Shown one piece after another: positions 17,899 through 35,324 of a stretch of 36,873 bases of DNA. The notes below the pieces were generated by a model, which was not told where the DNA came from, searched no databases, and worked only from the letters and a program-made list of their open reading frames with translations. The position numbers and the translations under genes were made by a program. The stretch lies in the NCBI GenBank assembly GCA_024281015.1, contig JAMXLL010000356.1, forward strand, positions 1 to 36,873, in the 5' to 3' direction. Within the stretch, counting starts at the first letter, position 1; every line of letters starts with the position of its first letter. The DNA comes from Candidatus Binataceae bacterium. GTDB lineage: Bacteria; Desulfobacterota; Binatia; Binatales; Binataceae.

Positions 17899-17970
17899 TT
17901 TTGGACAGGTTCGTTTGGGAATGTTTCGCTTCCCTCGAAGAACAGGCCGAGGGATTACGACTGAAGGTAC

Positions 17971-19734
17971 ATGACGATGACAATGGCGCATCGGCGGGCC
18001 ACGCGGCCCTTACTCAATGAAGAGGTCTCACCGAGCGAGGCGATTGTCCGGGTACTGGAACAAGCCGGCATAAATCTGGTCTTCGGGATGCCTGGCGGCA
18101 ACATGGGTGCGGTCTTCAACGCCCTTTATGACCATCGGGAGACGGTGCGAAGCGTACTGGTTCGAGAGGAAGCCCGGGCTGGGGTTATGGCCGAGGTTTA
18201 CGGCAAATTGACCGGCAGACCCGGAGTGGTAATCGCGCAGGGGGCGTTTCTCGCCAACGTCACGCTTGGCGCGATTGAAGGTTATCTGTCCAGCTCGCCA
18301 ATGCTGCTGATGGGCGACCTGAGCGACCATTCACCATACTCGGCTCATTCGCCATATCAATCCGGGGCGGGTGAATATGGCACCTGGGACGCCAAGCAAC
18401 TCTTCGCGGCAATCACCAAACAGACCATGGTCGCGTACAACGGCGCTCATGCGGTGCAGTGCACCGAACTGGCTATCAAACATGCGCTCAGTGGGCAACG
18501 CGGTCCCGTTGCGGTGCTTTACCACAGCCAATCGTTGCGAGGACGCGTCGGTCCGGAGACGCGCCCGACGCTTTACGGGCTGGATTCATATCTGCCGCCT
18601 ACCACGTCACAGGCCGATGAGGGCGCGGTAAGCGAGGCTGCACGGGTGCTGGCCGGAGCCGAACGGCCTGTACTAATTGCCGGTAACGGGGTTCGCATCA
18701 GTCAGGCGTATGACGAACTGGCCAATCTGGCGATAAATTTGGGTGCAGGAGTGTCAACGACCGCGGGAGGAAAGGGGACGTTCCCCGAAACTCACGAGCT
18801 GGCCTTGGGGGTTTGTGGCAACTTCGGAACCACATTGGCCAACGCTGAAATCGCAGCCGCCGACGTAATCTTCGCCGTCGGCACCAAGCTCGGGGTTAGC
18901 GATTTCGCCAATCAGAATCCGAAGCTGATTGATCCACGCAGGCAGATCCTGATCCAACTTGATATTGAACCACGCAACGCCTCCTGGACTTTCCCGGCCG
19001 AAATCGTGTTGATCGGCGATGCCAAAGTGGCGCTGAGGCAGTTGATGGTCTCGGTTTCAGGCCAAGGCGGGTCTCCGCCTCAAAGAGTTGCGGCCGCGCG
19101 GCTGCGGCTGCAAAACTCGCGGCGCGAGTATGGATTCTTCGACGCTCCCGAATTGCGCTCCGAGGAGACTCCGATTCTGCCACAACGTGCTATCAGCGAG
19201 ATTCAACGGTGCGTACCCAACGACGCGATCATCACCTGCGATGCGGGTGAGAACCGGATCTTCATGACGCATTATTTTCAAACCAAGGGGTCCGGGACTT
19301 TTTTGCAGCCAAGCGGCGTGGGTGGCATGGGTTACGCCATTCCGGCAGCGATGGCCGCCAAGTTGGTTCATCGCGAGCGGAAGGTGATAGCTGTATGCGG
19401 TGACGGTGGCTTTGCCATCGGCATGAACGGACTGATGACGGCAGTGGCCGAGGACATTCCGATAACAGTCGTGGTCTTTAATAATGGCGCCCTGGGATGG
19501 GTCAAGCATGGCCAGGGGGACCGCAACATCGCTTGCGACCTCTCGAACTTCGATCATGCAGCTATCGCGCGCAGTATGGGATGCGACGGGATACGGGTCG
19601 AAGAACCCTCCGCAATGGGCGCGGCGCTAAGGCAAGCAATGGCGAGCGACAAACCTTCGGTCTTAGACGTCGATACGTCGCTTAAAGAGACCTACCGGCG
19701 GGTGACCTCGCCGCTGGCGATCGAACGCACATGA
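17971..19734 (+). CDS. Thiamine-diphosphate enzyme, acetolactate synthase-like
   Basis: A 587-residue member of the ThDP-dependent family of acetolactate synthase, benzoylformate decarboxylase and related lyases. The PYR domain is at about 20-190 with the probable catalytic Glu67 in VREEARAGVMAEVYGK. A central Rossmann domain is at about 215-350 (RPVLIAGNGVRISQA). The PP domain has the GDG...NN cofactor motif starting at GDGG 477-480 and ending FNNGALGW. Compared with true IlvB the glutamate context is REEA rather than RHEQ, and the GPGATN region is AQGAFLANV; no small subunit lies nearby. It is therefore probably not the biosynthetic enzyme; substrate unknown. The ATG has AAGG 5 bases upstream; two further in-frame ATGs follow within five codons. 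Confidence 0.85.
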   Translation: MTMTMAHRRATRPLLNEEVSPSEAIVRVLEQAGINLVFGMPGGNMGAVFNALYDHRETVRSVLVREEARAGVMAEVYGKLTGRPGVVIAQGAFLANVTLGAIEGYLSSSPMLLMGDLSDHSPYSAHSPYQSGAGEYGTWDAKQLFAAITKQTMVAYNGAHAVQCTELAIKHALSGQRGPVAVLYHSQSLRGRVGPETRPTLYGLDSYLPPTTSQADEGAVSEAARVLAGAERPVLIAGNGVRISQAYDELANLAINLGAGVSTTAGGKGTFPETHELALGVCGNFGTTLANAEIAAADVIFAVGTKLGVSDFANQNPKLIDPRRQILIQLDIEPRNASWTFPAEIVLIGDAKVALRQLMVSVSGQGGSPPQRVAAARLRLQNSRREYGFFDAPELRSEETPILPQRAISEIQRCVPNDAIITCDAGENRIFMTHYFQTKGSGTFLQPSGVGGMGYAIPAAMAAKLVHRERKVIAVCGDGGFAIGMNGLMTAVAEDIPITVVVFNNGALGWVKHGQGDRNIACDLSNFDHAAIARSMGCDGIRVEEPSAMGAALRQAMASDKPSVLDVDTSLKETYRRVTSPLAIERT

Positions 19735-19782
19735 AAGCCCAGGGCCGCATGCAATCTGCAATCATTGGCAACGAGCCCTAAG

Positions 19783-20199
19783 ATGCAAACTCTTAAGTAT
19801 GTCGCAGGCGCGGTCATCGTAATGCTCCTCGCTGTGAATGGCGGCGCGCAAGGGCCGCAGGGTATTACCGCCGACGCAGACCTAGAAGCGGCCAGACAAG
19901 TCAGGGACTATTACGCTGATTGGCTTTCTTCGATTCCCGGGGTCTCCGCGGTGCGAGCAGCAAACAACCAGCGGGGTGAACCAGAGATAGTTGTGGACGT
20001 CAGCCAGAGAACCCCCCAAATCAAGCAAATCCCCGACAAACTTAATGGGATTCCGGTCGTCGTCGAATCGCTGCCACAGGCCGAAGGGGAACAATTGTAC
20101 TCCCAGCCGGCGAACATTCGCGGTTACCTGCCAACCCCAACTCCGGAAGCCGAAATCAAACCGGTACCGACTCCGGCTGGCAATACCGGTTGGCAATAA
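19783..20199 (+). CDS. Small secreted protein, function unknown
   Basis: A 138-residue protein from ATG 19783, 48 bp after the ThDP enzyme on the same strand. The N-terminus (MQTLKYVAGAVIVMLLAV, then GGAQG) is a signal peptide with cleavage near residue 21. A compact domain follows with SSIPGVSAVRAANNQ, EPEIVVDVS and KLNGIPVVVESLP. This strand-helix-strand pattern (PGV..V, I.V.V, L.GIPV.V) resembles the small module at the N-terminus of some secreted trypsin-like proteins, a likeness drawn from memory only. It ends in a proline-threonine tail (PTPTPEAEIKPVPTP). A longer frame from TTG 19765 is possible. It may share a transcript with the ThDP gene. Confidence 0.7.
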   Translation: MQTLKYVAGAVIVMLLAVNGGAQGPQGITADADLEAARQVRDYYADWLSSIPGVSAVRAANNQRGEPEIVVDVSQRTPQIKQIPDKLNGIPVVVESLPQAEGEQLYSQPANIRGYLPTPTPEAEIKPVPTPAGNTGWQ

Positions 20200-20261
20200 A
20201 TTCTGGCCGACCCCGGTCAGTCAAGAGAACCAACTCCGTAATCGCGGGGAAGCTTTCACCT

Positions 20262-21047
20262 CTACTTTGCAGCCTGGCGAAACGGTGCCACAGCTTGGAC
20301 CGCACGCTCAGCTTCCCGCCTTATCATCACGAGGTCTGTGCCGTAGAGCAGGAACTGAGCGCCGCTGTCGATAACTGACTTCGCGTTCTCAGGCCGATTG
20401 ATGGCGCCTGCCGTTGCAATGCCTCGCGCTTTACACAGGGCCCGCACCCGGGCATCGGCGTCGCGCACGTGTGGGTGGCTATACTCACCCGGAACGCCAA
20501 GACTTTGCGCCAGATCCTGGTGGCCAACAAGCGCGAGATCGATGCCGGGGATCAGAATGTCGTCGAGGTTCTCGACCGCCTCGCGTGTTTCGATCAAGAC
20601 GGCAAGCAAGGTGTTGGCGTTGGCGTGAGCGACCGCGCGTGCCGGGTCGACATCTTCGTAAGCGGTGCTGGCCCCCTGGTAAATCGCCATCCCGCGCCGC
20701 CCTTCCGGGTGGTATTTCGCATACTCGACGAATCGCCGCACCTCCGCACCAGTTCTGACGTGCGGGACTATGAGGCTCTGGCATCCGGTATCGAGCATCC
20801 GAGTTACATATTGATACTGCAGGTCAGGGATACGAACGATGGGCGTAATACCGGCCGCATGCGCATGAGCGACCAGATTGACGACGGTTTCGAGATTGTA
20901 GGCGGAATGCTCGGTACAGATCATCACGAAATCCATCCCCGCCTGCGCCAGGGTGTGCACCACACCTCGTCCCTGGGTCTCCCACATAAGAGTTCCCAGG
21001 GCGATGCCACCGGACTTTAAGGTAGCTCGCAATCTATTGACCTGCAT
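20262..21047 (-). CDS. HpcH/HpaI-family aldolase
   Basis: A 261-residue class II pyruvate aldolase of the HpcH/HpaI (2,4-dihydroxyhept-2-ene-1,7-dioate aldolase) family, a TIM barrel that cleaves or forms 4-hydroxy-2-keto acids using a divalent metal. Visible motifs are GTLMWETQGRGVV, the general base His47 in ICTEHSAYN, PHVRTGAEVRRFVEYAKYHP then EGRRG, the metal glutamate in LIETREAVENLDDI, and the metal aspartate in IPGIDLALVGHQDLAQSLG. I chose ATG 21047 because GGAGGT stands 6 bases upstream; an ATG at 21074 would place that site inside the gene. It is divergent from the amidohydrolase at 21236, with a 188-bp shared upstream region. Confidence 0.92.
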   Translation of the reverse strand: MQVNRLRATLKSGGIALGTLMWETQGRGVVHTLAQAGMDFVMICTEHSAYNLETVVNLVAHAHAAGITPIVRIPDLQYQYVTRMLDTGCQSLIVPHVRTGAEVRRFVEYAKYHPEGRRGMAIYQGASTAYEDVDPARAVAHANANTLLAVLIETREAVENLDDILIPGIDLALVGHQDLAQSLGVPGEYSHPHVRDADARVRALCKARGIATAGAINRPENAKSVIDSGAQFLLYGTDLVMIRREAERAVQAVAPFRQAAK

Positions 21048-21235
21048 TGAAATACCTCCAAGGTACCTGCTCATTCGGAGCTTAGAAATTTGCGAAGATT
21101 CTAGTAAACGCCCTCCGAGAAATATTCAAAAAAAGATGTTAGTGTCGAGCGTCGGAGTTGGTCGACAGCAGCGCAGCAGCGGCGGAGCGAGTTACCTGAT
21201 CCTTACAGGGGTTATTTGGAAGGAGGGTCGGCGAG

Positions 21236-22927
21236 ATGGCCTACGATATCCTGATCGAAAATACCCAAATTTGTGATGGCTCGGGGGCACCCGCTTACCC
21301 TGGCTCGGTCGCAATTGAAGCAGGCAAGATTGCCGCGGTCGGGAAAGTCAGCGAAAGTGCCCGTCGCAAGCTTAACGGCCGCGACCTCGTCGTCGCGCCC
21401 GGTTTTATCGATCCGCACACCCATTATGATGCCCAGATCTGCTGGGACCCGCTGCTTACGTCATCGTGCTGGCACGGGATCACGACGGTCCTGATGGGAA
21501 ACTGCGGGGTAGGTATCGCCCCCTGCCGGCCGGCTGATAAAGAAGTCCTCGCCTGGGATTTGGTCAACGTTGAAGCACTGCCCTACGAGGTGCTGATTCA
21601 AGGGGCCTCGTGGGAATGGGAAAGTTTCGGCGACTATCTCGCATCCATCGCACGGCGCGGAACTGTCCTGAATACGGCTTTCCTGGTGCCGCTTTCAGCC
21701 TTGCGCTTCTACGTCATAGGCGAGCAGGCCTCGCAAAGAGCCGCAACGCCGGCGGAAATCGAACAGATGGTGCGATTGTTCCGGGAGGCGATGAACGCCG
21801 GCGCCTATGGCTTTTCGCTGAGCATGATCAAACGGCACATGGGTTTTCAGGGCAAGCCGCTTGCCAGCCGCCTGGCCGGCAAGGATGAACTGGCAGCCCT
21901 ATGCCACGTCATGAGGGAACTGAATCGCGGGGTTATCGAAATTGCCCTGATGAAGCAGATCGGGACGATGGCCGAGGATGAGCTCGATCTACTGCTTCAT
22001 CTGGCACGCGAAAGTTCCCGTCCCGTAACGTGGCTTGCGCTGCTCGACATGCCAGGACTGGGCGACGCCAACCAGCGGATCCTGGAACGCGTGCGCCCGT
22101 TTATGCAGCAAGGGCTGCGCATACCGCCCCAGGTAACGCCGCGTCCCGTCAAGATGTACTACGACCTGCGCACCCCGTCCTTGTGCGGTGAAATGCCCTC
22201 GTGGCGGCCGGCATTTAATCGTTCACGCGAGGAGCAGATCGCGCTTTATCGTTCGGATGCCTTCCGCGCGCAGTTTCGTGACGATCTGCAAGCGCGCCGC
22301 GGCGCTTTCTTCAATGGGCAGTGGGATGCAGTCACGGTCGCCAAGGTGAGCCGCAATGAGCATAAACCATTGCTCAACAAGAGCATTCGCGAGGTCGCTG
22401 AACTCCAGCGCAAGCACCCGGTAGACGCGTTTCTCGATCTCGCCATTGCGGAGAACCTGGAATTGGGCATAACCGTTCAGTTGATCAACGCCGATCAAAA
22501 CGCCGTCGCCAGACTGATTAACCAGCCAGAGGTGATGATCGGACTGTCCGATGCCGGCGCTCACGTCAGTCAGCATTGCGAAGCTGGTTCGCCCACTTAC
22601 ATGCTGCGGGAATGGGTCTACAACAATCCAGTGATGAGCTTGGAGACCGCCGTCAAGCGACTGACCTCCGAACCTGCGGATTTCCTGGGTCTGAGCAGCA
22701 AGGGGCGCGTTCGCCCCGGGCTGGATGCCGATCTCGTGATATTTGACCCGGCGAGCGTGGGGACCAAGCCATTGGAATGGGTAAATGATCTACCGGGCGG
22801 AGCGCCTCGCTTAATCGAACACTCGCAAGGAATCATCTGGAGCATAATCGGCGGCGAAGTGGTGTTCGCCAATAATGAGTATCAGGGCGTCAAGCCAGGT
22901 CGCGTGCTAAGGCCGACTGCTGATTGA
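21236..22927 (+). CDS. D-aminoacylase-like amidohydrolase
   Basis: A 563-residue metal-dependent hydrolase of the amidohydrolase superfamily, closest to N-acyl-D-amino-acid deacylases. The small beta-sandwich is built from both ends (DILIENTQICDGSG and GLDADLVIFDPASVG). The barrel has the metal motif DPHTHYD (His61, His63), the metal-bridging cysteine Cys90 in GNCGVG, and the catalytic Asp439 in SDAGAHVSQHCE. D-aminoacylases are usually 480-550 residues; this is slightly long, with an insert near residues 320-380. Many such genes in soil bacteria act on unknown amides, so the substrate is open. GGAGGG about 11 bases upstream supports the ATG. It is followed 43 bp on by a flavin monooxygenase. 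Confidence 0.9.
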   Translation: MAYDILIENTQICDGSGAPAYPGSVAIEAGKIAAVGKVSESARRKLNGRDLVVAPGFIDPHTHYDAQICWDPLLTSSCWHGITTVLMGNCGVGIAPCRPADKEVLAWDLVNVEALPYEVLIQGASWEWESFGDYLASIARRGTVLNTAFLVPLSALRFYVIGEQASQRAATPAEIEQMVRLFREAMNAGAYGFSLSMIKRHMGFQGKPLASRLAGKDELAALCHVMRELNRGVIEIALMKQIGTMAEDELDLLLHLARESSRPVTWLALLDMPGLGDANQRILERVRPFMQQGLRIPPQVTPRPVKMYYDLRTPSLCGEMPSWRPAFNRSREEQIALYRSDAFRAQFRDDLQARRGAFFNGQWDAVTVAKVSRNEHKPLLNKSIREVAELQRKHPVDAFLDLAIAENLELGITVQLINADQNAVARLINQPEVMIGLSDAGAHVSQHCEAGSPTYMLREWVYNNPVMSLETAVKRLTSEPADFLGLSSKGRVRPGLDADLVIFDPASVGTKPLEWVNDLPGGAPRLIEHSQGIIWSIIGGEVVFANNEYQGVKPGRVLRPTAD

Positions 22928-22970
22928 GCCACACAGCAGCCCGCTGAACCGCGGCAGAGAGCGCCAACTT

Positions 22971-24350
22971 ATGACGAAGGAAATTCGCCTCAACGCATTC
23001 GACATGAACTGCGTCGGCCACTTGTCGGCGGGCCTGTGGGCTCATCCGCGCGATCGCGCGTATACCTACAAAGATTTGAGCTACTGGATTGAACTCGCCA
23101 AGCTCCTGGAACGTGGCAAATTCGACGGCATCTTCCTCGCCGATGTGCTCGGCGTGTACGACGTTTATGGCGGCAATCCGAACGCCGCATTGCGGCAGTG
23201 CGCCCAGGTGCCAGTGAACGACCCGGTGCTGGTGATACCGGCAATGGCGAGTGTTACTGAGCATCTTGGCTTCGGGGTCACCTGTACACTCTCGTTTGAG
23301 CCGCCCTACCCCTTTGCACGGCGAATGTCCACGCTCGACCACCTGACCGGCGGTCGTGCCGGCTGGAATATCGTGACAGGCTACCTGGATAGCGCGGCGC
23401 GTGGTACCGGTCTCGACGCGCAGACCGCTCACGATTTGCGCTACGACATCGCCGACGAATACATGGAGGTCGTGTACAAGCTGTGGGAAGGCAGCTGGGA
23501 AGATGATGCGGTGGTCCGCGACCGTGAAAACGGGGTGTTCGCCCATCCGGAAAAGGTTCACGCCGTTAAACACGATGGCAAATATTATCGGGTAAATGCG
23601 ATCCATCTCTGCGAACCATCACCGCAGCGCACACCCGTGCTCTATCAGGCGGGAGCTTCGAGCCGTGGCCGCAGATTCGCAGCGAGGCATGCGGAGTGCA
23701 TTTTTCTTACTGGCTCAAAACGAATCGCGGCATCGACCGTTGCCGATATTCGCCGTCATGCGGTGCTTGACGGGCGCGATCCCGCGGAAATTCTGATGTT
23801 TGCCGGGATTAGCGTGATTGTCGGCCGCAGCGAGGCTGAGGCGCAGGCCAAGCTGGACGATTACCGCCGCTATATCAATCCCGAAGGCGCCCTCGCCCTG
23901 CTCTCGGGCTGGACCGGAATAGATTTTTCTAAATATGCCCTGGATGACCCGCTCAGCTATGTCAAAAACGACGCTGTAAACTCGATCGTCGAAGCGCTCA
24001 CACGTAAGGCCAACCGGAAATGGACCGTTCGCGAATTAGTTGAATATGGAGGTCTCGGAGGTCCGGCTCCGACAATTATCGGGTCGCCCAGCCAGGTGGC
24101 AGACGAGTTGGAATCTTGGATCGATGAAACAGGAGTCGACGGCTTCAACCTCGCCTACATAGTCACACCGGAAAGCTTCAGCGATTTCGTCGATCTCGTA
24201 GTGCCCGAGTTGCAGCGGCGCGGGATCTACAAACGTGAATACCGACCGGGCACACTGCGAGAAAAGCTATACGGCTCCGGCCGTTCGCGGTTGCCCGCCA
24301 ACCATCCGGCCGCCAGGCATCGTTATCCTCACGACGAGCCGCCTTGCTGA
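22971..24350 (+). CDS. NtaA/DszA/SnaA-type flavin-dependent monooxygenase
   Basis: A 459-residue FMN-dependent luciferase-like monooxygenase. Members oxidise nitrilotriacetate (NtaA), dibenzothiophene sulfone (DszA) or dimethyl sulfide (DmoA) with FMNH2 supplied by a separate reductase. Family signs are LNAFDMNCVGHLSAGLWAHP, GKFDGIFLADVLGVYD, HLTGGRAGWNIVTGYLDSA, YMEVVYKLWEGSWE and TPVLYQAGASSRGR. Length fits the subfamily (about 440-460), distinct from the short F420/FMN types in this window. No flavin reductase gene is present here. Spacing of 43 bp suggests cotranscription with the amidohydrolase, so both may act on one N-acyl or heteroatom-containing compound, which is inference. Confidence 0.93.
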   Translation: MTKEIRLNAFDMNCVGHLSAGLWAHPRDRAYTYKDLSYWIELAKLLERGKFDGIFLADVLGVYDVYGGNPNAALRQCAQVPVNDPVLVIPAMASVTEHLGFGVTCTLSFEPPYPFARRMSTLDHLTGGRAGWNIVTGYLDSAARGTGLDAQTAHDLRYDIADEYMEVVYKLWEGSWEDDAVVRDRENGVFAHPEKVHAVKHDGKYYRVNAIHLCEPSPQRTPVLYQAGASSRGRRFAARHAECIFLTGSKRIAASTVADIRRHAVLDGRDPAEILMFAGISVIVGRSEAEAQAKLDDYRRYINPEGALALLSGWTGIDFSKYALDDPLSYVKNDAVNSIVEALTRKANRKWTVRELVEYGGLGGPAPTIIGSPSQVADELESWIDETGVDGFNLAYIVTPESFSDFVDLVVPELQRRGIYKREYRPGTLREKLYGSGRSRLPANHPAARHRYPHDEPPC

Positions 24351-24433
24351 CAGTCATACTGGCGCGCGGGACATGTCGCTAGTACAGTCGCAATCACGGC
24401 ATGGGCTGTTGAGAGTGGCTGCTGACAGGTGGT

Positions 24434-24459
24434 GATGCAAGCGGCTCGCTCGCTGCATC
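24434..24459. repeat. Inverted repeat between the monooxygenase and the 1260-codon gene
   Basis: The arms GATGCAAGCG (24434-24443) and CGCTGCATC (24451-24459) pair with one bulged base around a 7-base loop. It lies just upstream of a candidate promoter. No T run follows, so it could be an operator or a weak transcript end. Confidence 0.35.
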
Positions 24460-24465
24460 CCCGGC

Positions 24466-24494
24466 TTGACAATTGGTCACGACCGCGCGATTAC
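24466..24494 (+). promoter_or_regulatory. Candidate promoter of the 1260-codon gene
   Basis: A perfect TTGACA (24466-24471) is followed at 17 bp by GATTAC (24489-24494), which matches the -10 consensus at only three bases. It is 49 bp upstream of the GTG start. This suggests the gene is transcribed on its own. Confidence 0.35.
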
Positions 24495-24542
24495 GCGCAG
24501 GAAAATTGGCTCGCAATCGATCCGAAATAAGGCGACGGGAAA

Positions 24543-27500
24543 GTGGCCGCTAGCAATGGCTCCTATCTCGGGCCGAATGCCCTTGTCCTGGCTCTGCTAG
24601 GGGCGCTCGGCGTCGGGCTCCCTGCTTTGAGATTCACCGGGGGCCTGCCGGTGAATGCCGCAGCGACTCCCGCCCCTTCAGTCGCGCCTACCCGCACGAC
24701 CGCTTCCTATTCGCACGGCGCTCTCGAACTGCTGGAACAATTTTTCGACACGGCCGCTCCACAACAAACCCGCGACAAGCCATGGCTCACGCAGGATCAG
24801 CCTGGGCTTGGGAATGAATCACTGCCGGAATCCGATCGCGAAAAACGTTTCCTCATTTCATTTCTGATTGAAACAGTGCCAGCTTCGGATTCCGCTTCGC
24901 TTCGCCATGAATTCGACACTTACTTAAATGCCATTCAAATGGCTGCCGGTCGTGCAGGTTACGTCCTGGACAGCTTCGACCTGCCGTGGCTCGGGCAGAA
25001 GGACCACAGCGGCGGCTTCCATCTCGAAGAACCGATTGAGCTTGACTTGCATGAGGCGGCAGCACCGCAAGTCAGCGGTGCAGGCAAGGGAAACTCGCCT
25101 ACGCGCCCGGGTCAAGCCGAAAACCAATCAAATCACCCTGACCCTATCGTTGCGGTGCGCCCGGCAACCAATGAGGCCAAGGCCGGGCGCGATCCTGGAG
25201 TATTGCTGTTTCGCGGCAATGGTAAGTTGAACCGCCTGCTGATCGTCTTCCTGGTAGATGAAACGCCGACTCGCGGCGTGAACAAGACGGCGCTGCGCGA
25301 TGCCCTCGACCAAATCGCATGGCTATCCGGCTGGATCAGCAGCGGCGCGCCTGCACCACAGTACCTGGTGAATGCGACCTGTAGCGCGAACCGCGCGGCA
25401 GTCGAGAGAGTCGCGGCGACCCCATGTCCTGCCGAGCATCGTGAGATTCGCATCATCGGCCCTACCTTCTCTGGGTCTGCGGTGTCGTTACGCAATAGTC
25501 TCATCGCCTGGCTTGGGGCGCACAGCATCGGCCAGGTGAAATTCAGCATTCTATCCGGCACCGCAACAGCCATCGGTGACAAGCTCGGTAGCACTCAAGT
25601 CGGAGACCCTTCCCTGGAATTCCATTCCGTGCGGATCGCGGATTCGGCAATTTGGCAATTCGTACATGGCTTTCTGCACGCTGGCGATGACGAGGCACAT
25701 CCTACGCTGGCCGTGCTTAGTGACGATACCAGCTATGGCGGGGCGGCGACGGGTCAGAAATCGGCAATCCTGCGCATAAGTTATCCCGTCCACATTTCCA
25801 ACCTCCGCGCCGCCCTGGATCGTACCGATCTGGCCAGTCCCCCCCCGGCACTCGAGCTGCATCGCCGTGACATTCCGATGACGGACGAAGGCGATCAGCC
25901 GGACAAGGATGTAATCCCTTTATTTTCAGGGCGATCCGCTACGTACGATGAACTCGTGCTCGAAAATTTACTGACAACACTGAATACGGAGCGCATCAAA
26001 TATATCGGCATTGTTGCCACCGACGTCGAGGATCTTGTTTTCCTCGCTCACGAAATCCGCCGCACGTGCCCGAACGCCGTATTGTTCACGACATCTGCCG
26101 ATCTGCGCTACGTCCACACCGATGTTAACGCTGATTTAATCGGAATGTTCGTCTTTTCGACTTATCCGTTGTTCGGATTGAATCAGGCGTGGACGTATCC
26201 GTTTACGGGCGCGTCGCAGCGGATCCTATTTCCGGGCGAGGATGCACAAGGTGTGTTCAATGCGACACTGGCGCAGCTCAACGATGTTGAGGGAATGGAA
26301 GAATACGGGGCACCATTCGCAACCAATCTTCGATCCTACAACCGTACACCCGCGCTCTGGGTCGGCGTGGTGGGTCGCGACGCTATCTGGCCGCTACGCT
26401 TCCAAATGGAGGAGGGGGTTGAGAACTTATACGCACCCCGAACCTTCCGCACCGGCACACCGGCGATGGAACTATTAAACTTTTACCCGCTGCCGTTCCA
26501 GATTGCCTTTCTCGTAATTTGCCTTGGATCTTTGATTCCCGCCGCCGCCATGCTTTGGCCGGAATTGTTTAAGGTAAGACCCATGCCACCCGGTTCTGGC
26601 CGGCCGTGGCCCGAAGCGCTGTTTGGTGATGCGGTGTTCCCGGAATTTCACCAAGAACGGTGGATGCGTGTCAGCGCTTTCCTGGGTGCCTTGCTGATCG
26701 CGCTAACAGTCGGTGTCGGCTATTTCCTCCTGCCGTTGTGCAGTGCCGGTCTGTTCGGCGGGCTGGCCCATACTATGTCACTGAGCCTGCCGGTCGCGCT
26801 GGCGACGATCCTGGCCATGCTCGTCACGATTCCCGCAACACTGGCCGCTATCACGGCGTCCCTGCGGCGAATCTGGAACGAGCCGCCCAAAACGGATCGA
26901 GGCGCTGAGCCACTTGCGAGTCTCACGCCGACCGGGGCGCAGTTCGCGCTGTTTGGCACTGCTGTCGGTTTCGTCCTGGTGGCGGCTTTCGCAATCAGTC
27001 AATGGCTGCAAGCGCCGGGTGTCACGCTGCTCAACTTCATACGAGCTTCAAATTTAGGCAACGGTGTATCTCCACTGACGCCCCTCATCTTCCTTGGGAC
27101 GGCAAATCTCTGCCTGATCGGCGGTGACTTATGGCGGCTGCGCCTCATCGAAGATTGCCGCGTCAAGTCTCCATTTCTGAACTTCGAGGCGGGGGCGCCA
27201 TCGTTCGGCGGCACGGACGCGCTTGAGGCGCGAGTAATTCATTTCCTCGAGTGTTCGCCCTGGGAATTACCTGGAACGTGGTTGCTGATTGCGTTGCTTA
27301 CCGTATCGTTCATCTATTTCGCATGCAGCCGCGGCTTACCGGTGGCTTCGATCGATGGGTGGAGTTTCAACCTGCTTTTTTTCCTTTCGGCCGGATTCAT
27401 CTATTTCTACTTCTCGATACAGCTGCTTCGATTCGGATGGTTATGGCATGCTTTGCACCGCCTTTTACGGCGTCTTTACTGGCATCCAACACGCGGTGCT

Positions 27501-28325
27501 TACTCATTGTTGCGCGTCCGCTCGCTACCGGAATCGGACACTCAGACCATCAGGCTGATTGAACCACGGCCGAGCTTGACTGCAACGGAATTTTGCCTGC
27601 AATGCGCCCGGGAAATTTTGTACCTCCTCGATCACCCGGCCGGCCAAGATGGGAACGAGGAGCGCACCTGGGGTGGACCGGAAACCGCCGAAACGCTGCG
27701 CAATAGCGTTCGTTTCGCAGAAGGTGAGATTGCCGCAGTACTGGCAGCGCAAAGGCGGCCGAACTGGCAGGCCGCAACCATGCTGCGATTGAGGGCGCAA
27801 GAAGCGATGGCGCACCTCTCGCAGCAGTTAACTAAATTGCTCGAACCGGCATGGCGATTGGTGCCGGATCGTCCGCAGCCAGGCCGCGCCGAGCGCGATC
27901 AGAAAGTTATAGAGTGGGGCAATCTGTTCGTGGCGGGCCGAGTGGTCGATTTCCTGCGCCAGGCGTTTCCGCAAATGCGGATCCTCGGTGGCTCCGCAAT
28001 GGCCGGTCTGCTCGCAATGATGCTTGCCGCCAGCGTTTATCCTTTCGTGCAGCGCGACTTGCTGTTGTGGATTAGTTGGTTCGTTTTGCTCACCGCGGTT
28101 GGAATCGGACTCACCATATTCGTTCAGATCGGGCGAAGCCGGATTATCAGCATGTTGTATGGCACTACGCCTGGCCGTTTCAATTGGGACAGTGCTTTTA
28201 CGATGCGCCTGTTGCTGTTTGGGATCATTCCGATCCTCACTTTGCTCGGTGCCCAGTATCCGAACGCGCTCGGGGGAGTCGTCTCATGGATCGGCAGACT
28301 CGTTGGCGGTGCTCCAGGTCACTAA
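24543..28325 (+). CDS. Large membrane protein with receptor-like ectodomain, function unknown
   Basis: A 1260-residue protein from GTG 24543 (GGGA about 4 bases upstream). One hydrophobic segment near residues 12-30 is a signal or anchor. Residues about 95-640 are soluble and probably extracytoplasmic. They contain two similar strands, RFLISFLIETVPA near 102 and RLLIVFLVDETPT near 230, then IRIIGPTFSGSAVSLRNSL near 302, LAVLSDDTSYGG near 390 and IKYIGIVATDVEDLVFLA near 485, the strand-helix rhythm of a type-1 periplasmic-binding-protein fold. About ten membrane helices follow (starting near 647, 708, 747, 801, 849, 912, 945, 1149, 1173, 1222), with a soluble loop at about 970-1145. No kinase, transporter or enzyme motif is seen. 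I faintly recall similar ectodomains in uncharacterised proteins of other soil bacteria. Confidence 0.85.
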   Translation: MAASNGSYLGPNALVLALLGALGVGLPALRFTGGLPVNAAATPAPSVAPTRTTASYSHGALELLEQFFDTAAPQQTRDKPWLTQDQPGLGNESLPESDREKRFLISFLIETVPASDSASLRHEFDTYLNAIQMAAGRAGYVLDSFDLPWLGQKDHSGGFHLEEPIELDLHEAAAPQVSGAGKGNSPTRPGQAENQSNHPDPIVAVRPATNEAKAGRDPGVLLFRGNGKLNRLLIVFLVDETPTRGVNKTALRDALDQIAWLSGWISSGAPAPQYLVNATCSANRAAVERVAATPCPAEHREIRIIGPTFSGSAVSLRNSLIAWLGAHSIGQVKFSILSGTATAIGDKLGSTQVGDPSLEFHSVRIADSAIWQFVHGFLHAGDDEAHPTLAVLSDDTSYGGAATGQKSAILRISYPVHISNLRAALDRTDLASPPPALELHRRDIPMTDEGDQPDKDVIPLFSGRSATYDELVLENLLTTLNTERIKYIGIVATDVEDLVFLAHEIRRTCPNAVLFTTSADLRYVHTDVNADLIGMFVFSTYPLFGLNQAWTYPFTGASQRILFPGEDAQGVFNATLAQLNDVEGMEEYGAPFATNLRSYNRTPALWVGVVGRDAIWPLRFQMEEGVENLYAPRTFRTGTPAMELLNFYPLPFQIAFLVICLGSLIPAAAMLWPELFKVRPMPPGSGRPWPEALFGDAVFPEFHQERWMRVSAFLGALLIALTVGVGYFLLPLCSAGLFGGLAHTMSLSLPVALATILAMLVTIPATLAAITASLRRIWNEPPKTDRGAEPLASLTPTGAQFALFGTAVGFVLVAAFAISQWLQAPGVTLLNFIRASNLGNGVSPLTPLIFLGTANLCLIGGDLWRLRLIEDCRVKSPFLNFEAGAPSFGGTDALEARVIHFLECSPWELPGTWLLIALLTVSFIYFACSRGLPVASIDGWSFNLLFFLSAGFIYFYFSIQLLRFGWLWHALHRLLRRLYWHPTRGAYSLLRVRSLPESDTQTIRLIEPRPSLTATEFCLQCAREILYLLDHPAGQDGNEERTWGGPETAETLRNSVRFAEGEIAAVLAAQRRPNWQAATMLRLRAQEAMAHLSQQLTKLLEPAWRLVPDRPQPGRAERDQKVIEWGNLFVAGRVVDFLRQAFPQMRILGGSAMAGLLAMMLAASVYPFVQRDLLLWISWFVLLTAVGIGLTIFVQIGRSRIISMLYGTTPGRFNWDSAFTMRLLLFGIIPILTLLGAQYPNALGGVVSWIGRLVGGAPGH

Positions 28326-28444
28326 ACTTTTAGCTCGCGCCCTTGAACACGGGCTTCGGCAGCGCCCCGCCATTGCCATCACTGCACCAGCTTAACGCAA
28401 CCGAACTTTTATCGTTCGGAGGCGATTGTGCTAAAGCTAAAATC

Positions 28445-28480
28445 TGGGCGGTGGGAACTTCATCCAGCCGAAACCGCCCA
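28445..28480. repeat. Inverted repeat upstream of the amidohydrolase
   Basis: TGGGCGGT (28445-28452) and ACCGCCCA (28473-28480) form a perfect 8-bp stem with a 20-base loop, 43 bp before the ATG at 28524. There is no T run. It may be a leader hairpin or the end of the upstream transcript. Confidence 0.3.
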
Positions 28481-28523
28481 AGCGAGTACGAAAAGTCGCC
28501 GTCAATGAAGCGAGGAACAGGCC

Positions 28524-29669
28524 ATGAACTACGAAGTCATCTCAGCCGATTGCCATATCGATTTGATTTGGCTGCCGCCCGACCTTTTTACCTCGAATGC
28601 GCGTAAGGAACTTAAGGAACGCATGCCTTATGTCGTGGATAGTTCCAAGGGTCCGCGATGGGTATCGAAGAACGGCGGCAATTTTGGCCTTATGAACGGG
28701 ATGGGTTCGGCGGGCCGGGAGTACGTACCGGGTCAGATCCATCGCTCCGATCGGATGGCTTCGACCGGCCTTTACGACGATGGCCGCAAAGGCATCCGCC
28801 GTCTGAGCGACCCGGAATTGCGCCTCAAGGATCAGGAGCGGGACGGTGTGCAAGCCGAGGTGCTCTACGGCATCCTGGGTGCCAGTATGCGTCTTAACGA
28901 TGACGAAGCGGCGACTGAGATGCTGCGGATCTATAACGACTGGCTTGCCGATTTCGGCCGCACACACCCTGACCGTTACGCCCCGCTCGCCTGCATCCCG
29001 AGTCACGACATCGATGCTGCGGTGGACGAGATAAAGCGAGTGGCCAAGCGTGGGGTGGTGCGTGGTCTTGAGATCGCCAATCGTGTCGGGATGAAAGCAC
29101 TGTACGACCCTTGGTGGAACCCGTTGTGGGAGGTCGCGGCTGAAACCCGCCTGCCTATACACTTGCACACCATCGGCGGCGGTTTGCCGGATTTCAACAA
29201 GCTGGAACCCAAGGTACAGCGGGCAGCCTTCGCTGCGGCCATTTCGAGTTTTCAGATGTATATGGCAATTCCGCTGATGTCGCTGATTTTTGCCGGGGTG
29301 TTGGAGCATCACCCGGAGATCCGGATCGTTATTGGCGAGAGTGGAATCGGTTGGATTCCCTATGTCCTCGACCACATGGATTTGGAATGGGAAGACCAGT
29401 TCAAAGATCTGGACCTCAAGATGCGGCCTAGTGAATATTGGCGGCGGCAAGGTTATGCCACGTATCAAAGCGATCGCATCGGTATCAAGATGATCGATGA
29501 GATCGGCGAGGATAACATCATGTGGGGTTCCGATTTCCCCCACCCCGACGGTGTGTGGCCGGATTCGCAGGAATATATCCAGCGCGAACTGGGCCATTTG
29601 CCCGAACGCGTGCGCCGCAAAGTGATTTGCGATAACGCAGGCAAACTTTACGGTTTCCTGCCAAATTGA
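28524..29669 (+). CDS. Amidohydrolase family 2 protein
   Basis: A 381-residue TIM-barrel enzyme of the amidohydrolase-related (Amidohydro_2; ACMSD-like decarboxylase or hydrolase) family. It starts with VISADCHIDL, giving His11 and Asp13 in the position of the HxH metal motif, so the first metal ligand pair is CHID rather than the usual HxH. Later motifs are RLPIHLHTIGG, HHPEIRIVIGESGIGWIPY and MWGSDFPHPDGVWP with Asp337. Homologues of this type are common in soil bacteria and mostly lack a known substrate. GAGGA lies 10 bases before the ATG. It stands alone on the plus strand and is followed by a strong hairpin. Confidence 0.9.
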   Translation: MNYEVISADCHIDLIWLPPDLFTSNARKELKERMPYVVDSSKGPRWVSKNGGNFGLMNGMGSAGREYVPGQIHRSDRMASTGLYDDGRKGIRRLSDPELRLKDQERDGVQAEVLYGILGASMRLNDDEAATEMLRIYNDWLADFGRTHPDRYAPLACIPSHDIDAAVDEIKRVAKRGVVRGLEIANRVGMKALYDPWWNPLWEVAAETRLPIHLHTIGGGLPDFNKLEPKVQRAAFAAAISSFQMYMAIPLMSLIFAGVLEHHPEIRIVIGESGIGWIPYVLDHMDLEWEDQFKDLDLKMRPSEYWRRQGYATYQSDRIGIKMIDEIGEDNIMWGSDFPHPDGVWPDSQEYIQRELGHLPERVRRKVICDNAGKLYGFLPN

Positions 29670-29930
29670 GCCGACCTTTATGGCGGGGTGACTGAGACGG
29701 CGCGAGAGGCGCGGCTGGACTTGCCGCGCCTCTCGGGCGTTTAGGGATTGTGCCCTGCTTGCGTCAACGGGTTTCCTGCCCCAGTTGTTGGACGCGAATG
29801 ACTGGAGACGAACGCATGATTCGGCAAGTTGCGGGCTTCTCTATCCTGCCGCTCCTTTTGTGATCGTGAGCGCCCTTAACGAGTTCCAGCGAAACATCCA
29901 CGCCCGTTTTAGCCCGGCGCGTCAACCCTG
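29670..29930. other. Gap between amidohydrolase and dioxygenase
   Basis: These 261 bp lie between converging genes. They contain the hairpin at 29703-29735 and, at 29816-29863, a 16-codon frame (MIRQVAGFSILPLLL) with GGAGA before its ATG. I take that frame as probably chance. Nothing else is recognised. Confidence 0.5.
29703..29735 (+). terminator. Strong hairpin after the amidohydrolase
   Basis: CGAGAGGCGCGGC (29703-29715) and its exact complement GCCGCGCCTCTCG (29723-29735) give a perfect 13-bp GC-rich stem with a 7-base loop, 34 bp past the amidohydrolase stop. It is followed by GGCGTTTAGG, a poor T run. Position and strength suggest a terminator, perhaps needing Rho or acting as a 3'-end stabiliser, and it may serve both converging genes. 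Confidence 0.6.
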
Positions 29931-30755
29931 CTAGGCGGCCTTGCGCATCACACGCGGTAAGCTGAAGTCATAAACCACTGAGTAATAAGGCTTGGCAAAT
30001 CCTTTGTTTTTCAAGTCTTTCGGATCCTCGTGCTTGGCCGGTGTTACGATCAATGATTGCTTGACCGCACCGACCACGTCTGAATCAATCCACGGGTCGC
30101 CGCTGAAGAAGAGCTGGGTGGTCAGCGTTTCACAAGACTCGTGAGTGATGCGCAAGTGTAGATGCGCGGGGCGCCATGCATGACGGCCAGTTCCTCGCAG
30201 CAATGCGCCGGTCGGGCCATCTTTGGGCACCTGATAAGGCGAAGGTACCCAGGTCTGCACCTCGAATCGTCCGCTCTGATCGGCAATCACGCGAGCGCGC
30301 AGATTCCAGGGCGCCTGATCGGCTGGAATATTGAAATGCGAGTATGCACCTTCGGCATCCGATTGCCACATATCGAGCATCGCACCGCTCAACGCGTCCC
30401 CCTCCACTGATCGAACGGTCCCCGATAGCAACAGTATGTCCCCTGGTTCATTGGCGCGATGTGGCAACACGCAAGGCGACCTCAGGAGCGGTGCTTCAGG
30501 AGCGTAGAACGGACCTTCAACCGAGGTCTCCGTGCCACCACGCCCGGCAGCATCAACCTGGTCAACGGTGGCTTCGAGAAAGACGTCAAACAGCAGCGGG
30601 ATTTCGCCTTTGGCGGCGGTTTCCATCATAAAGGCAATCGCACGCCGATATTCATCATGGCTGATCTGATGCTTGCGAATAAGTCCTCGCAGATTCGCCA
30701 GCAAGTCGTTGACCACCTCGGTAAGCCTGGCATCAGCCGTTTGTGTTCCAGCCAT
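29931..30755 (-). CDS. Intradiol ring-cleavage dioxygenase (hydroxyquinol 1,2-dioxygenase-like)
   Basis: A non-haem Fe(III) enzyme of 274 residues that opens catechol-type rings between the two hydroxyls. All four iron ligands are visible: Tyr138 (EGAYSHF), Tyr174 (PSPYQVP), His198 and His200 (RPAHLHLRI), with the spacing normal for the family. An N-terminal helical dimerisation domain (residues 10-75) and VEGPFYAPEAP precede the beta-sandwich. The layout fits hydroxyquinol or catechol 1,2-dioxygenases better than protocatechuate 3,4-dioxygenase. I chose ATG 30755, since GGAGG lies 5 bases upstream; an ATG at 30782 falls inside an inverted repeat. No maleylacetate reductase or muconate cycloisomerase gene is adjacent, so the pathway is incomplete here. 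Confidence 0.92.
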   Translation of the reverse strand: MAGTQTADARLTEVVNDLLANLRGLIRKHQISHDEYRRAIAFMMETAAKGEIPLLFDVFLEATVDQVDAAGRGGTETSVEGPFYAPEAPLLRSPCVLPHRANEPGDILLLSGTVRSVEGDALSGAMLDMWQSDAEGAYSHFNIPADQAPWNLRARVIADQSGRFEVQTWVPSPYQVPKDGPTGALLRGTGRHAWRPAHLHLRITHESCETLTTQLFFSGDPWIDSDVVGAVKQSLIVTPAKHEDPKDLKNKGFAKPYYSVVYDFSLPRVMRKAA

Positions 30756-30778
30756 AGCAGCCTCCGTATTTGTCTGAC

Positions 30779-30799
30779 TCATCCGGGGCGGCCGGATGA
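30779..30799. promoter_or_regulatory. Inverted repeat upstream of the dioxygenase (possible operator)
   Basis: TCATCCGG (30779-30786) and CCGGATGA (30792-30799) form a perfect 8-bp inverted repeat with a 5-base centre, 24 bp upstream of the chosen dioxygenase start. The size suits a dimeric regulator site, or a leader hairpin. Confidence 0.4.
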
Positions 30800-30943
30800 A
30801 CTGCTACGAAGATAATTACAACTTTCACCATTAGCGCGCGAACGCTCCGATTTGAACCCCATCAAACGGCGACATCGCGAAGGCGGAAAGTTAGAGAGAA
30901 CTCCGCCACTTTCATTTGCATTGATTACAACCCCCTTCTGAAG

Positions 30944-30958
30944 CTGGTTGGTAACCAG
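30944..30958. promoter_or_regulatory. Short dyad in the dioxygenase-ABC intergenic region
   Basis: CTGGTT-GGT-AACCAG is a perfect 6-bp dyad with a 3-base centre, lying 57 bp before the ABC ATPase start. It could be an operator in the divergent control region. Weak on its own. Confidence 0.25.
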
Positions 30959-31014
30959 GCGCGGTCAGACATTTGTCGAATGATATTTGGATGGCATTGG
31001 CCTAAAATCGTTAG

Positions 31015-31917
31015 GTGCGAGCACTGGAGTTAGAGTCAGTCCATAAATCGTTCGATGGTGTGATCGCGATCGATCGGCTCTCGATGGCGATTTCCGACGG
31101 CTGTATCTATGGCTTGTTGGGTCCGAACGGAGCCGGCAAAACTACCGCGATACGGATGATGGTGGGCATCCTCATGCCGGATCGGGGGCAGGTCCGTATT
31201 TTTGGCGAACGCTTCGAACGCCGTCACCTCAGACTAATCGGGTACCTGCCCGAAGAACGCGGCCTGTACCGGAAGGCCAAAATCGACGAATTATTACTCT
31301 ATTTGGGGGAACTCAAAGGACTACGCCGCTCGACAACGCATCGCAGGGTTGTGGAAATCGCTGAACGGCTGGGAATCCGCGCGGCGCTAACGCGGCGGAT
31401 CGAAGAACTCTCAAAAGGGATGGAGCAGAAAATCCAGCTCATCGCTGCGATGATTAATGATCCGCAATTATTGATCCTGGACGAGCCATTCGCCGGACTT
31501 GATCCGCTTAACAGCACCCTCCTGATGGAGTTGCTGCTCGAGTTGAAGCAGGCCGGCCACACGATTTTACTTTCGAGCCATCGCATGGACCGCGTCGAAA
31601 GTCTCTGCGATGAAATCTGCCTGATGAACCACGGCAAAAGCCTCTTGCAGGGTGGACTGGCAGAACTCAAGGCGCGCTTCGGCCGCCGAATACGTCTGGT
31701 CTATCGCGGCGAAGCGCCGCTTCTTCAACAGAATGGCGTCATCAAATCCCGCGGGCAGGGCGGAAACGTCGTGGAAGCGTGGTTAGGTCCAGGTACAGAC
31801 GGGCAGGAATTGCTGCAGACCGTCGCTACGACCGCAACGATTGTAAGCTATGAGGCGGTTGAGCCTTCATTGGAGGAGATCTTCATCGAAGCAGTGGGAA
31901 GCCATGATGGCGTTTGA
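31015..31917 (+). CDS. ABC transporter ATP-binding protein (NatA/DUF4162 type)
   Basis: The 300-residue ATPase of an ABC-2 export system. Walker A is GPNGAGKT at 36-43, the signature LSKGM at 132-136, Walker B LLILDEP at 152-158 with the catalytic Glu157, and the H-loop LLSSHRMDRVE near 187. A C-terminal domain of about 75 residues (from GGLAELKARFGRRIRLVY) matches the DUF4162 extension of NatA-like proteins. It starts with GTG at 31015; no strong ribosome site precedes it. It overlaps its permease partner by 14 bases, so the two are translationally coupled and form one exporter. Substrate unknown; NatAB sodium export is one family precedent. Confidence 0.94.
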   Translation: MRALELESVHKSFDGVIAIDRLSMAISDGCIYGLLGPNGAGKTTAIRMMVGILMPDRGQVRIFGERFERRHLRLIGYLPEERGLYRKAKIDELLLYLGELKGLRRSTTHRRVVEIAERLGIRAALTRRIEELSKGMEQKIQLIAAMINDPQLLILDEPFAGLDPLNSTLLMELLLELKQAGHTILLSSHRMDRVESLCDEICLMNHGKSLLQGGLAELKARFGRRIRLVYRGEAPLLQQNGVIKSRGQGGNVVEAWLGPGTDGQELLQTVATTATIVSYEAVEPSLEEIFIEAVGSHDGV

Positions 31918-33169
31918 GGAAATCCGTGCGGTGTGGCTGGTGCTCCGCCGCGAGTACGTTGAACGTGTAAAATCGTTCTCTTTTCTCGCCAGCACGTTTG
32001 CCGCACCCCTCCTGTTTCTGGCAGCCTCGGCGACGCCCGCGTTGTTCGCAACTCCGCACCCAGTCGCCCCGAAAAATGTCGTGATAGCCGGCGCCGCGCC
32101 GCAGGAGGCACGCCAGATTGCGGAGATGTTTCAGAGTTTCGGGCGCTATCGAGTCACTCTCGCGACCAACACGACGCCTGAGGAACATGCCGAACTGACC
32201 GCGATGGTACGGAATTCACAGATCGAGGGCTTTGTCTGGCTCGACGCGCCAGCGATAGCCAGTGGACGGGTTGTCTATACCTCGCGCTCGGGACTCGATG
32301 CCGATGGGCGCGACCGCCTGCGCCGCATCATTTATCTCGCCCTTCTTCGGACCCGTTTAGCCGCTCGCGGGCTGGCCCCAAGCGAGATAGAGCGCGCTCT
32401 GCAACCGGTTACATTCAGTGTAGTTGCCTTGCGCGGTAAGGGTTCAGGCAAATCGGAGGGCGACCCGATTGCCGTTATCGTGGTCACCGTCACGCTCATC
32501 ACGATACTCGAAATGAGCCTGCTGTCTTATGGGATAATCGTGATGCGGTCGGTACTTGAGGACAAGACCTCACGCATGGTGGAGATTCTGCTTTGCTCGG
32601 TAACGCCGCGTGCGCTCATGGCAGGCAAAGTCCTGGGCATCGGCGGTTTAAGTTTTACACAGGCGGTGATCTGGGGCGCGATGGCGGCCGGCGGGGTCAC
32701 TATGGCCTCCCGGATACCAGCTACCGGCGTGGCATCCGGTTTCACGCTGGGCCCCGGCTCATTAGCGGTCTTCACTCTTTTCTATGTGCTGGGTTACCTT
32801 TTGTACAGTTCACTGTATGCTGCCTTGGGCGCTGCATTTAACAGTGCCGATGACGCGCAATACTGGAGTTTCGTCCTGACCTTACCGCTGCTGTTCGCCG
32901 GAATGGCGGCCTGGTCGCTGTTTGAGCAGGCCGATTCGGCCATTGCCGTTGCCCTATCATTGGTACCGCCCCTTGCACCGGTAATGATGAGCATGCGAAT
33001 CGCGACAGGGGCGGCGCCCGGCTGGCAAATAGCCATTTCGGCGGTACTGATGATCGCCGCTATTTACGCGGCCTGGGTATTATCGGCCCGGATTTATCGG
33101 GTTGGTACTTTAATGTTTGGCAAAAAGCCGAGCTTGCGTGAAATCAGCCGATGGGTGCGCTACGCGTGA
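31904..33169 (+). CDS. ABC-2 type permease (NatB-like)
   Basis: A 421-residue membrane partner of the preceding ATPase. I chose ATG 31904 (or 31907) because MMAFEEIRAVWLVLRREYV is the usual cytoplasmic start of this family. The first membrane helix is about residues 25-48. A large extracytoplasmic domain follows (about 55-185). Then come about five helices beginning IAVIVVTVTLITILEMSLLS, with the family motif LEDKTSRMVEILLCSVTP between the first two of these. The last segment is MIAAIYAAWVLSARIYRVGT. Layout matches NatB/YhaP-type ABC-2 permeases. Coupled to the ATPase by overlap; no lone binding protein is nearby, consistent with export. Confidence 0.92.
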   Translation: MMAFEEIRAVWLVLRREYVERVKSFSFLASTFAAPLLFLAASATPALFATPHPVAPKNVVIAGAAPQEARQIAEMFQSFGRYRVTLATNTTPEEHAELTAMVRNSQIEGFVWLDAPAIASGRVVYTSRSGLDADGRDRLRRIIYLALLRTRLAARGLAPSEIERALQPVTFSVVALRGKGSGKSEGDPIAVIVVTVTLITILEMSLLSYGIIVMRSVLEDKTSRMVEILLCSVTPRALMAGKVLGIGGLSFTQAVIWGAMAAGGVTMASRIPATGVASGFTLGPGSLAVFTLFYVLGYLLYSSLYAALGAAFNSADDAQYWSFVLTLPLLFAGMAAWSLFEQADSAIAVALSLVPPLAPVMMSMRIATGAAPGWQIAISAVLMIAAIYAAWVLSARIYRVGTLMFGKKPSLREISRWVRYA

Positions 33170-33197
33170 GATAGTGGCCGCCCGTTGGACGCGTGCT

Positions 33198-33227
33198 TTG
33201 TCTGGTCGCGCACTAAGCTCATAAATT
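33198..33227 (+). promoter_or_regulatory. Candidate promoter of the flavin oxidoreductase
   Basis: TTGTCT (33198-33203) and TAAATT (33222-33227) are 18 bp apart, 23 bp upstream of the ATG at 33251. Fair match by eye only. Confidence 0.3.
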
Positions 33228-33250
33228 GAAGACCAAGCGGGGAGCCGGTC

Positions 33251-34636: not shown

Positions 34637-34769
34637 CTACTTTGGTTCATCAGGCATCGGCCTCCTACTTTTTTGCGGAGACATGACGCCAGGCCCACCG
34701 CATATGCGCCTCAGGTGCCCTGATTCACTTGGCAATGATTTTCGAGCGTCTTACGGAGAAGGTCGGAAG

Positions 34770-35324
34770 TCAGGTTGATTGCTTCCGCGTGACCGTTGTC
34801 ATCCATGGTGGCTTCAGGCGCACGATTTTCCCAAAAACGGGACAAGTCTTTTCATGGGCTCCCGGCAGATAGCCGATGCTCAGCAGGAATTCACCGGTTA
34901 TTTCTCCACCCGTGAAAAGGAAGGTCTTCTTGAATAGCTTAACCCAGTCAGGTTTGCTGAGCGGATGATGGCCTGCGAGCCATGCGGCGAACGCGCCGTG
35001 TTCAGCGCGTAATTGCCGAATTCGCCGCGCATTCTCGATAGCTGCGTCGATTTTCAGACGATTGCGAACAATGGCGGCATCATTGAGCAGGCGGTCTCGA
35101 TCCCGGCTCCCGTAATTTGCCACGCGGTCGACCTGGAAATTATCGTATGCAACGCGGAAACTGGAGCGCTTGGCCAGAATCGTCGTCCACGAGAGCCCGG
35201 CCTGATTGATTTCGAGCACGAGCCGCTCGAAGAGCGCCGACTCATCGCTGACAGGAAAACCGTATTCCCGCTCATGGTAAGGGCCATGCAAAGGATGTTG
35301 GGGCGCAATCTGGCAGTAGCTCAT
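34770..35324 (-). CDS. tag: DNA-3-methyladenine glycosylase I
   Basis: Removes 3-methyladenine from alkylated DNA by cutting the glycosidic bond. From ATG 35324 the protein has 184 residues, near the 187 of E. coli Tag. Numbering agrees closely: zinc ligands Cys4 and His17, substrate residues Tyr16, Glu38 and Trp46 fall at the same positions, and the C-terminal pair is His157 and Cys161 (AHEKTCPVF), with the same His-x3-Cys spacing as the E. coli pair. A longer frame to 35450 would overlap the divergent transporter and adds no Tag-like sequence. No ribosome site precedes the ATG, but TATACG lies 8 bases upstream, which fits a leaderless transcript. The start is 49 bp from the divergent MFS gene. 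Confidence 0.93.
   Translation of the reverse strand: MSYCQIAPQHPLHGPYHEREYGFPVSDESALFERLVLEINQAGLSWTTILAKRSSFRVAYDNFQVDRVANYGSRDRDRLLNDAAIVRNRLKIDAAIENARRIRQLRAEHGAFAAWLAGHHPLSKPDWVKLFKKTFLFTGGEITGEFLLSIGYLPGAHEKTCPVFGKIVRLKPPWMTTVTRKQST

Follow-up and report, generated by a model that had tools for sequence, protein, structure and literature searches.

Many neurotransmitter and taste receptors of animals are regulated or gated by Venus-flytrap domains; in bacteria such domains are known mainly as soluble transport proteins or ahead of kinases and cyclases. No description of a flytrap joined to a ten-helix membrane domain was found in the open literature searched. The gene considered here lies at 24543-28325 of the window, the whole stretch of DNA that was analysed, which is one entire 36.9-kb contig of a 4.83 Mb genome in 379 contigs. 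Within the scope of the databases and open literature searched, it belongs to an undescribed family in which a known ectodomain fold is joined to an undescribed membrane domain. We see about an even chance that the product is a stand-alone, receptor-like membrane protein, in which a ligand would drive a flytrap ectodomain followed by ten helices with a cytosolic helical loop. The further proposition, that these proteins form a partnerless, one-chain receptor family whose flytrap is coupled to a ten-helix domain of new fold in parallel to the class C GPCRs, is put forward somewhat more tentatively. A role in sensing or handing on a ligand can reasonably be inferred.

The gene and its predicted ectodomain

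The frame is open across 1260 codons, and its earliest start is a GTG that follows a four-codon leader and has a plausible ribosome site, AAGGCGACGGG. The family is under purifying selection, with dN/dS values of 0.08-0.28 in close pairs of its members, and is thus kept for its protein; because homologues also align along its length, 24543-28325 can be taken as a genuine gene rather than a frame open by chance. The GC content of 0.58 equals that of the window, so a recent foreign origin is unsupported by composition. No useful match to the gene exists in Pfam, NCBIfam, PDB sequences, PADLOC or PHROGs, which bears out the remark of an earlier, sequence-only reading that no known motif is visible. 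The promoter proposed in the same reading is a weak candidate: a TTGACA with a 17-base spacer to GATTAC is present at 24466, but a consensus scan of 24200-28600 finds no promoter-like site, against 1.7 expected by chance. The features of the gene up to the end of the ectodomain are the following.

24466..24494, + strand: weak promoter candidate TTGACA-N17-GATTAC (perfect TTGACA; consensus scan negative)
24543..28325, + strand: whole gene, 1260 aa, GTG start (full-length homologues, dN/dS of relatives)
24573..24626, + strand: hydrophobic segment near the N-terminus (residues 11-28), either a signal peptide or a signal anchor (consensus hydropathy, 52 homologues)
24840..26432, + strand: predicted extracytoplasmic type-1 PBP / Venus-flytrap domain, residues 100-630 (AlphaFold2, Foldseek, weak colinear profile alignment)
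25458..25490, + strand: GPTFSGSAVSL, residues 306-316, matching the beta3-alpha3 turn of type-1 PBPs (conservation, profile alignment)
25551..25571, + strand: LSGTATA, residues 337-343, aligned to SPANTA of an LIVBP-like protein (profile alignment)
25728..25739, + strand: TSYG, residues 396-399, with invariant T396, aligned to TLYG of an LIVBP-like protein (52 homologues)
26016..26033, + strand: ATDVED, residues 492-497, with invariant D497, in the putative second-lobe cleft region (52 homologues, profile alignment)

The AlphaFold2 model of the ectodomain, built from a 19-sequence alignment, has a mean pLDDT of 70 and a pTM of 0.75, with a low-confidence, disordered insertion at about residues 154-212. 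In a Foldseek search against the PDB, all 32 of the 32 matches at E<=0.001 are type-1 PBP folds with a probability of 1.00, and they include SAR11_0655, LIVBP relatives, AmiC, the flytraps of T1R, CaSR and GABA-B, and the amino-terminal domains of iGluRs. The TM-scores are mostly 0.25-0.5 and the rmsd is large, as might be expected of a divergent two-lobed protein with insertions. Since only type-1 PBP/Venus-flytrap folds were returned at this threshold, the fold that had been guessed from the sequence is supported, and the modelled ectodomain appears to adopt it. The Pfam profiles Peripla_BP_6 and ANF_receptor do not match the gene, and ANF_receptor touches only one of 19 homologues, at E 0.25; for this reason it is the fold that is claimed here and not Pfam membership. 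A proof of PBP homology by sequence profiles was also tried, and the alignment of its profile with those of PBPs from related genomes is colinear and not significant (E about 0.005, probability 8%). The pairs that fall in register are GPTFSGS with GHFNSG, which is the counterpart of the longer GPTFSGSAVSL in the LIVBP-like protein, SGTATA with SPANTA, TSYG with TLYG, and ATDVED with the following second-lobe strand.

The ectodomain holds most of the conservation of the family, with at least 70% conservation in 13.6% of its columns versus 3.2% in helices 1-7 and 2.8% in the cytosolic loop. Among the 52 homologues T396, D497, G219, G245 and G311 are 100% conserved, and S315 and L316 are conserved at 94%; the GPTFSGSAVSL phrase, already picked out in the sequence-only reading, is thus a conserved motif of the family. 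The motifs that would line the predicted cleft suggest that a small, possibly amino-acid-like ligand may be bound there.

The membrane half and a possible mechanism

The hydropathy consensus of the 52 homologues gives one N-terminal hydrophobic segment and ten helices after the ectodomain, in agreement with the roughly ten membrane helices counted earlier, and the soluble loop then put at 175 residues is found again as residues 965-1145, or about 180 residues.

26496..26558, + strand: membrane helix 1 (consensus hydropathy)
26673..26735, + strand: membrane helix 2 (consensus hydropathy)
26790..26849, + strand: membrane helix 3 (consensus hydropathy)
26949..26999, + strand: membrane helix 4 (consensus hydropathy)
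27042..27083, + strand: RASNLGNGVSPLTP, residues 834-847, signature with invariant Arg834 on the predicted outer face before helix 5
27069..27119, + strand: membrane helix 5 (consensus hydropathy)
27279..27329, + strand: membrane helix 6 (consensus hydropathy, topology)
27375..27434, + strand: membrane helix 7 (consensus hydropathy)
27435..27977, + strand: predicted cytosolic helical loop, residues 965-1145, poorly conserved (positive-inside counts, all-helical model)
27978..28034, + strand: membrane helix 8 (consensus hydropathy)
28038..28046, + strand: YPF, residues 1166-1168, a conserved outer loop joining helices 8 and 9 (conservation)
28068..28121, + strand: membrane helix 9 (consensus hydropathy)
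28206..28253, + strand: membrane helix 10 (consensus hydropathy)

Lysine and arginine together make up 13-15% of the predicted inside loops and 7-10% of the predicted outside loops, a positive-inside pattern that fits an ectodomain on the outside and a cytosolic 965-1145 loop. Most of the conserved positions of the membrane part, R834, SGvSPLxP and YPF among them, lie on its predicted outer side, which is the face that the ectodomain would contact in the model, and some conserved residues, such as R1198 and W968, are found on the inner side. The family alignment shows no conserved charged or polar residue buried within the helices, which argues against ion-coupled transport. The AlphaFold2 model of this half is all-helical, with a pLDDT of 73.5 and a pTM of 0.77, and its best Foldseek match among solved folds is to a lyase at E 0.09, with TRAP, CHT and MFS matches at noise level. 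The membrane half is therefore possibly a new membrane fold, a designation that is provisional because the first helices of the model are of low confidence.

In the receptor-like mechanism that we propose, a small ligand, possibly amino-acid-like, would bind between the two lobes in the periplasm, and the closing lobes would press on the conserved outer loops (Arg834-SGvSPLxP and YPF). The helix bundle, together with the cytosolic loop between helices 7 and 8, might then switch state, and the output could be either a signal to a partner encoded elsewhere or an action within the membrane itself.

The family and its genomic surroundings

Homologues of 990-1464 aa, alignable along their length, are present in about 50 genomes of Binatota, Acidobacteriota and Planctomycetota, among them that of the isolate Zavarzinella formosa DSM 19928, and in one Deltaproteobacterium/Myxococcota MAG. 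A protein search of 57 relatives found them in four other genomes of the gene's own taxonomic family, with 28-32% identity in full-length alignments, and gave a fifth, weak match (G033) that is a short remnant. The Acidobacteriota, Planctomycetota and Myxococcota loci come from an alignment-based scan of GTDB contigs; single-sequence searches of genome contigs and plasmids returned no homologue, and an alignment query was required. Profile searches were positive in 6 of 41 genomes of the gene's own family (a count that takes in both the window's genome and the remnant), in 13 of 95 of the family of Z. formosa and in 39 of 250 of the order of a Bryobacterales MAG, usually with one copy per positive genome. 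The gene is thus patchily present: in several groups from soil and freshwater, roughly one genome in seven carries it. Split or interrupted copies occur in five genomes (G022, G271, G289, G354 and G413); that of G022, from the same family as the window's genome (L022 11052-14879), has an in-frame TGA and is probably decayed. Planctomycetota copies make up a single group in the tree, and those of Binatota lie within one well-supported set together with those of Terriglobia, another Acidobacteriota and the Myxococcota MAG. This pattern suggests either a long-standing presence followed by many losses or a transfer in ancient times, and not constant recent exchange.

An equally unnamed sister family of 984-1207 aa (L055 6797-10420, L056 6677-9679, L057 6683-9637) has members in G042 (twice) and G190 and partial ones in G635 and G065. 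It shares a homologous PBP region (hhalign probability 97.9, E 5.6e-13) and, by eye, a GVSxWP motif in the membrane part, whereas its linker and helix layout are different; the sole match of its profile in the window's genome is the gene at 24543-28325 (E 3.4e-5). Sister-family motifs are VSEWDTFYGR and TTDLDARxLHP. An Eco57I-like restriction-modification gene lies about 0.9 kb upstream of the L057 copy, and plasmid pMSC49b of Methylosinus sp. C49 (L150 8908-9366) encodes a 153-aa hypothetical protein with 29.8% identity to the sister-family N-terminus (E 7e-5); a repABC origin and a Fic gene are close by.

ORF clustering at 56 loci revealed no recurrent neighbour, and when 88 adjacent ORFs were scanned with Pfam, four was the most that shared any one family. 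The lack of an obvious partner gene, noted earlier for this locus, therefore extends to its relatives, and the conserved neighbourhood that had been looked to as support for a sensor failed to appear. Three loci of close relatives (L033, L037 and L032) carry genes about 75% identical and share no common flanking DNA, so the gene travels, or is kept, as a unit of its own. A Ser/Thr kinase was considered as a partner and rejected, as the kinase beside L033 and L110 sits in DNA that is syntenic in general, and those close to L037 share just 35-38% identity with it across the kinase domain.

A congeneric sister species (G001) is collinear with most of the window between 10.3 and 36.5 kb. The gene slot is flanked by an NtaA-type monooxygenase (22971-24350) and an amidohydrolase (28524-29669), two catabolic genes with orthologues in G001, and the variable part, 24326-28513, is apparently occupied in the sister species by an RND efflux pump and a membrane-fusion protein (L175 13357-17822; by eye). 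An ABC transporter 2.7 kb downstream of the gene is without equivalent in the collinear part of G001 and is not a shared neighbour. Likewise without counterpart in the collinear contig are a TPP-dependent acetolactate-synthase-like enzyme (17898-20273) and the 30769-34799 segment, with an ABC transporter pair and a luciferase-like monooxygenase. Degradation-type genes lie in 20262-30782, among them an HpaI-type aldolase, amidohydrolases, an NtaA/DmoA-family FMN monooxygenase and an intradiol catechol dioxygenase.

Alternative readings and comparison with known systems

The order of the ectodomain motifs, which is that of PBPs, counts for a receptor; against it count the lack of any output domain found and of a conserved partner gene, the missing Peripla_BP_6 match, profile scores short of significance, and the moderate confidence of the ectodomain model with its modest TM-scores. 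Type-1 PBPs are mostly transport proteins, and ABC solute-binding proteins are among the Foldseek matches of the ectodomain. Together with a permease-like number of ten helices and the missing signalling output domain, this would suit a transporter with a fused binding protein, in which the flytrap hands a solute to an ATPase-free ten-helix permease. We nevertheless regard such a transporter as unlikely, given that the membrane half matches no transporter fold (its best hit being the lyase at E 0.09), has no conserved polar or charged residue in its helices and is far less conserved than the ectodomain, and that neither an ATPase nor a transporter is a conserved neighbour. Glutamate receptors are regulated and gated by type-1 and type-2 PBP-like domains, and by analogy closure of the flytrap might open a pore in the helix bundle. 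A solo, partnerless gene suits a self-contained output of this kind, as do the iGluR amino-terminal domains among the Foldseek matches and the conserved entry motif SGvSPLxP, rich in Pro and Gly, at helix 5; a ligand-gated channel is all the same quite improbable, as the membrane half has no channel fold match in Foldseek and no selectivity-filter-like motif was recognised.

The invariant T396 and D497, at putative cleft positions, suggest a retained small-molecule site and speak against a periplasmic scaffold or regulator that would bind an envelope protein or polymer in place of a small ligand. Type-1 PBP folds have been repurposed for envelope binding, as in LpoA, and the high divergence from PBPs and the large insertions in the ectodomain could be understood in this way, but a presence in 14-16% of genomes in two groups is ill-suited to a core envelope role, and we hold a scaffold to be slightly more improbable still. 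The same patchiness of a single-gene unit, the 75% identical copies at different locations in close relatives and the several decayed copies might instead point to a selfish or conflict gene, for example in anti-phage defence, whose ectodomain would act as a sensor and whose bundle would disrupt membranes. Considering that PADLOC models do not match, that defence genes are absent from the neighbourhood and that the tree largely follows phyla and not rapid exchange, this reading has very little probability.

If the receptor-like reading is true, these proteins would represent an independent, partnerless way of coupling ligand capture to a membrane bundle, spread across several phyla, and the copy in the cultivated type strain Z. 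formosa DSM 19928 makes the protein testable. Among known systems, an ABC uptake system has a dedicated ATPase and permease alongside, which are not conserved at the about 55 loci here, and the known anti-phage systems in PADLOC include no model that the gene matches. The 7TMR-DISM receptors and sensor kinases with extracellular PBP domains (PMC1592074) likewise place a sensing domain outside and helices in the membrane; they carry a recognisable intracellular signalling domain, whereas no kinase, GGDEF, cyclase or other such domain was found in 19 homologues. LIVBP (Peripla_BP_6, PF13458) and AmiC resemble the ectodomain in fold and in the order and type of the GPxFSG, SGTATA and TSYG motifs, although the protein described here is not soluble, has ten membrane helices fused to it, lacks a Pfam match and stands outside any transporter operon. 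In the class C GPCRs T1R, CaSR and GABA-B, whose flytraps show 7-13% identity in the Foldseek alignments, the bundle has seven helices, whereas the bacterial protein has ten, its helices 7 and 8 set apart by a large cytosolic insert, with neither a 7TM fold match in Foldseek nor Pfam 7tm_3. The likeness, which holds at the level of fold only, is that both place a type-1 PBP fold ahead of a helical bundle in one chain, and by analogy a coupling of flytrap closure to the bundle is likely in both.
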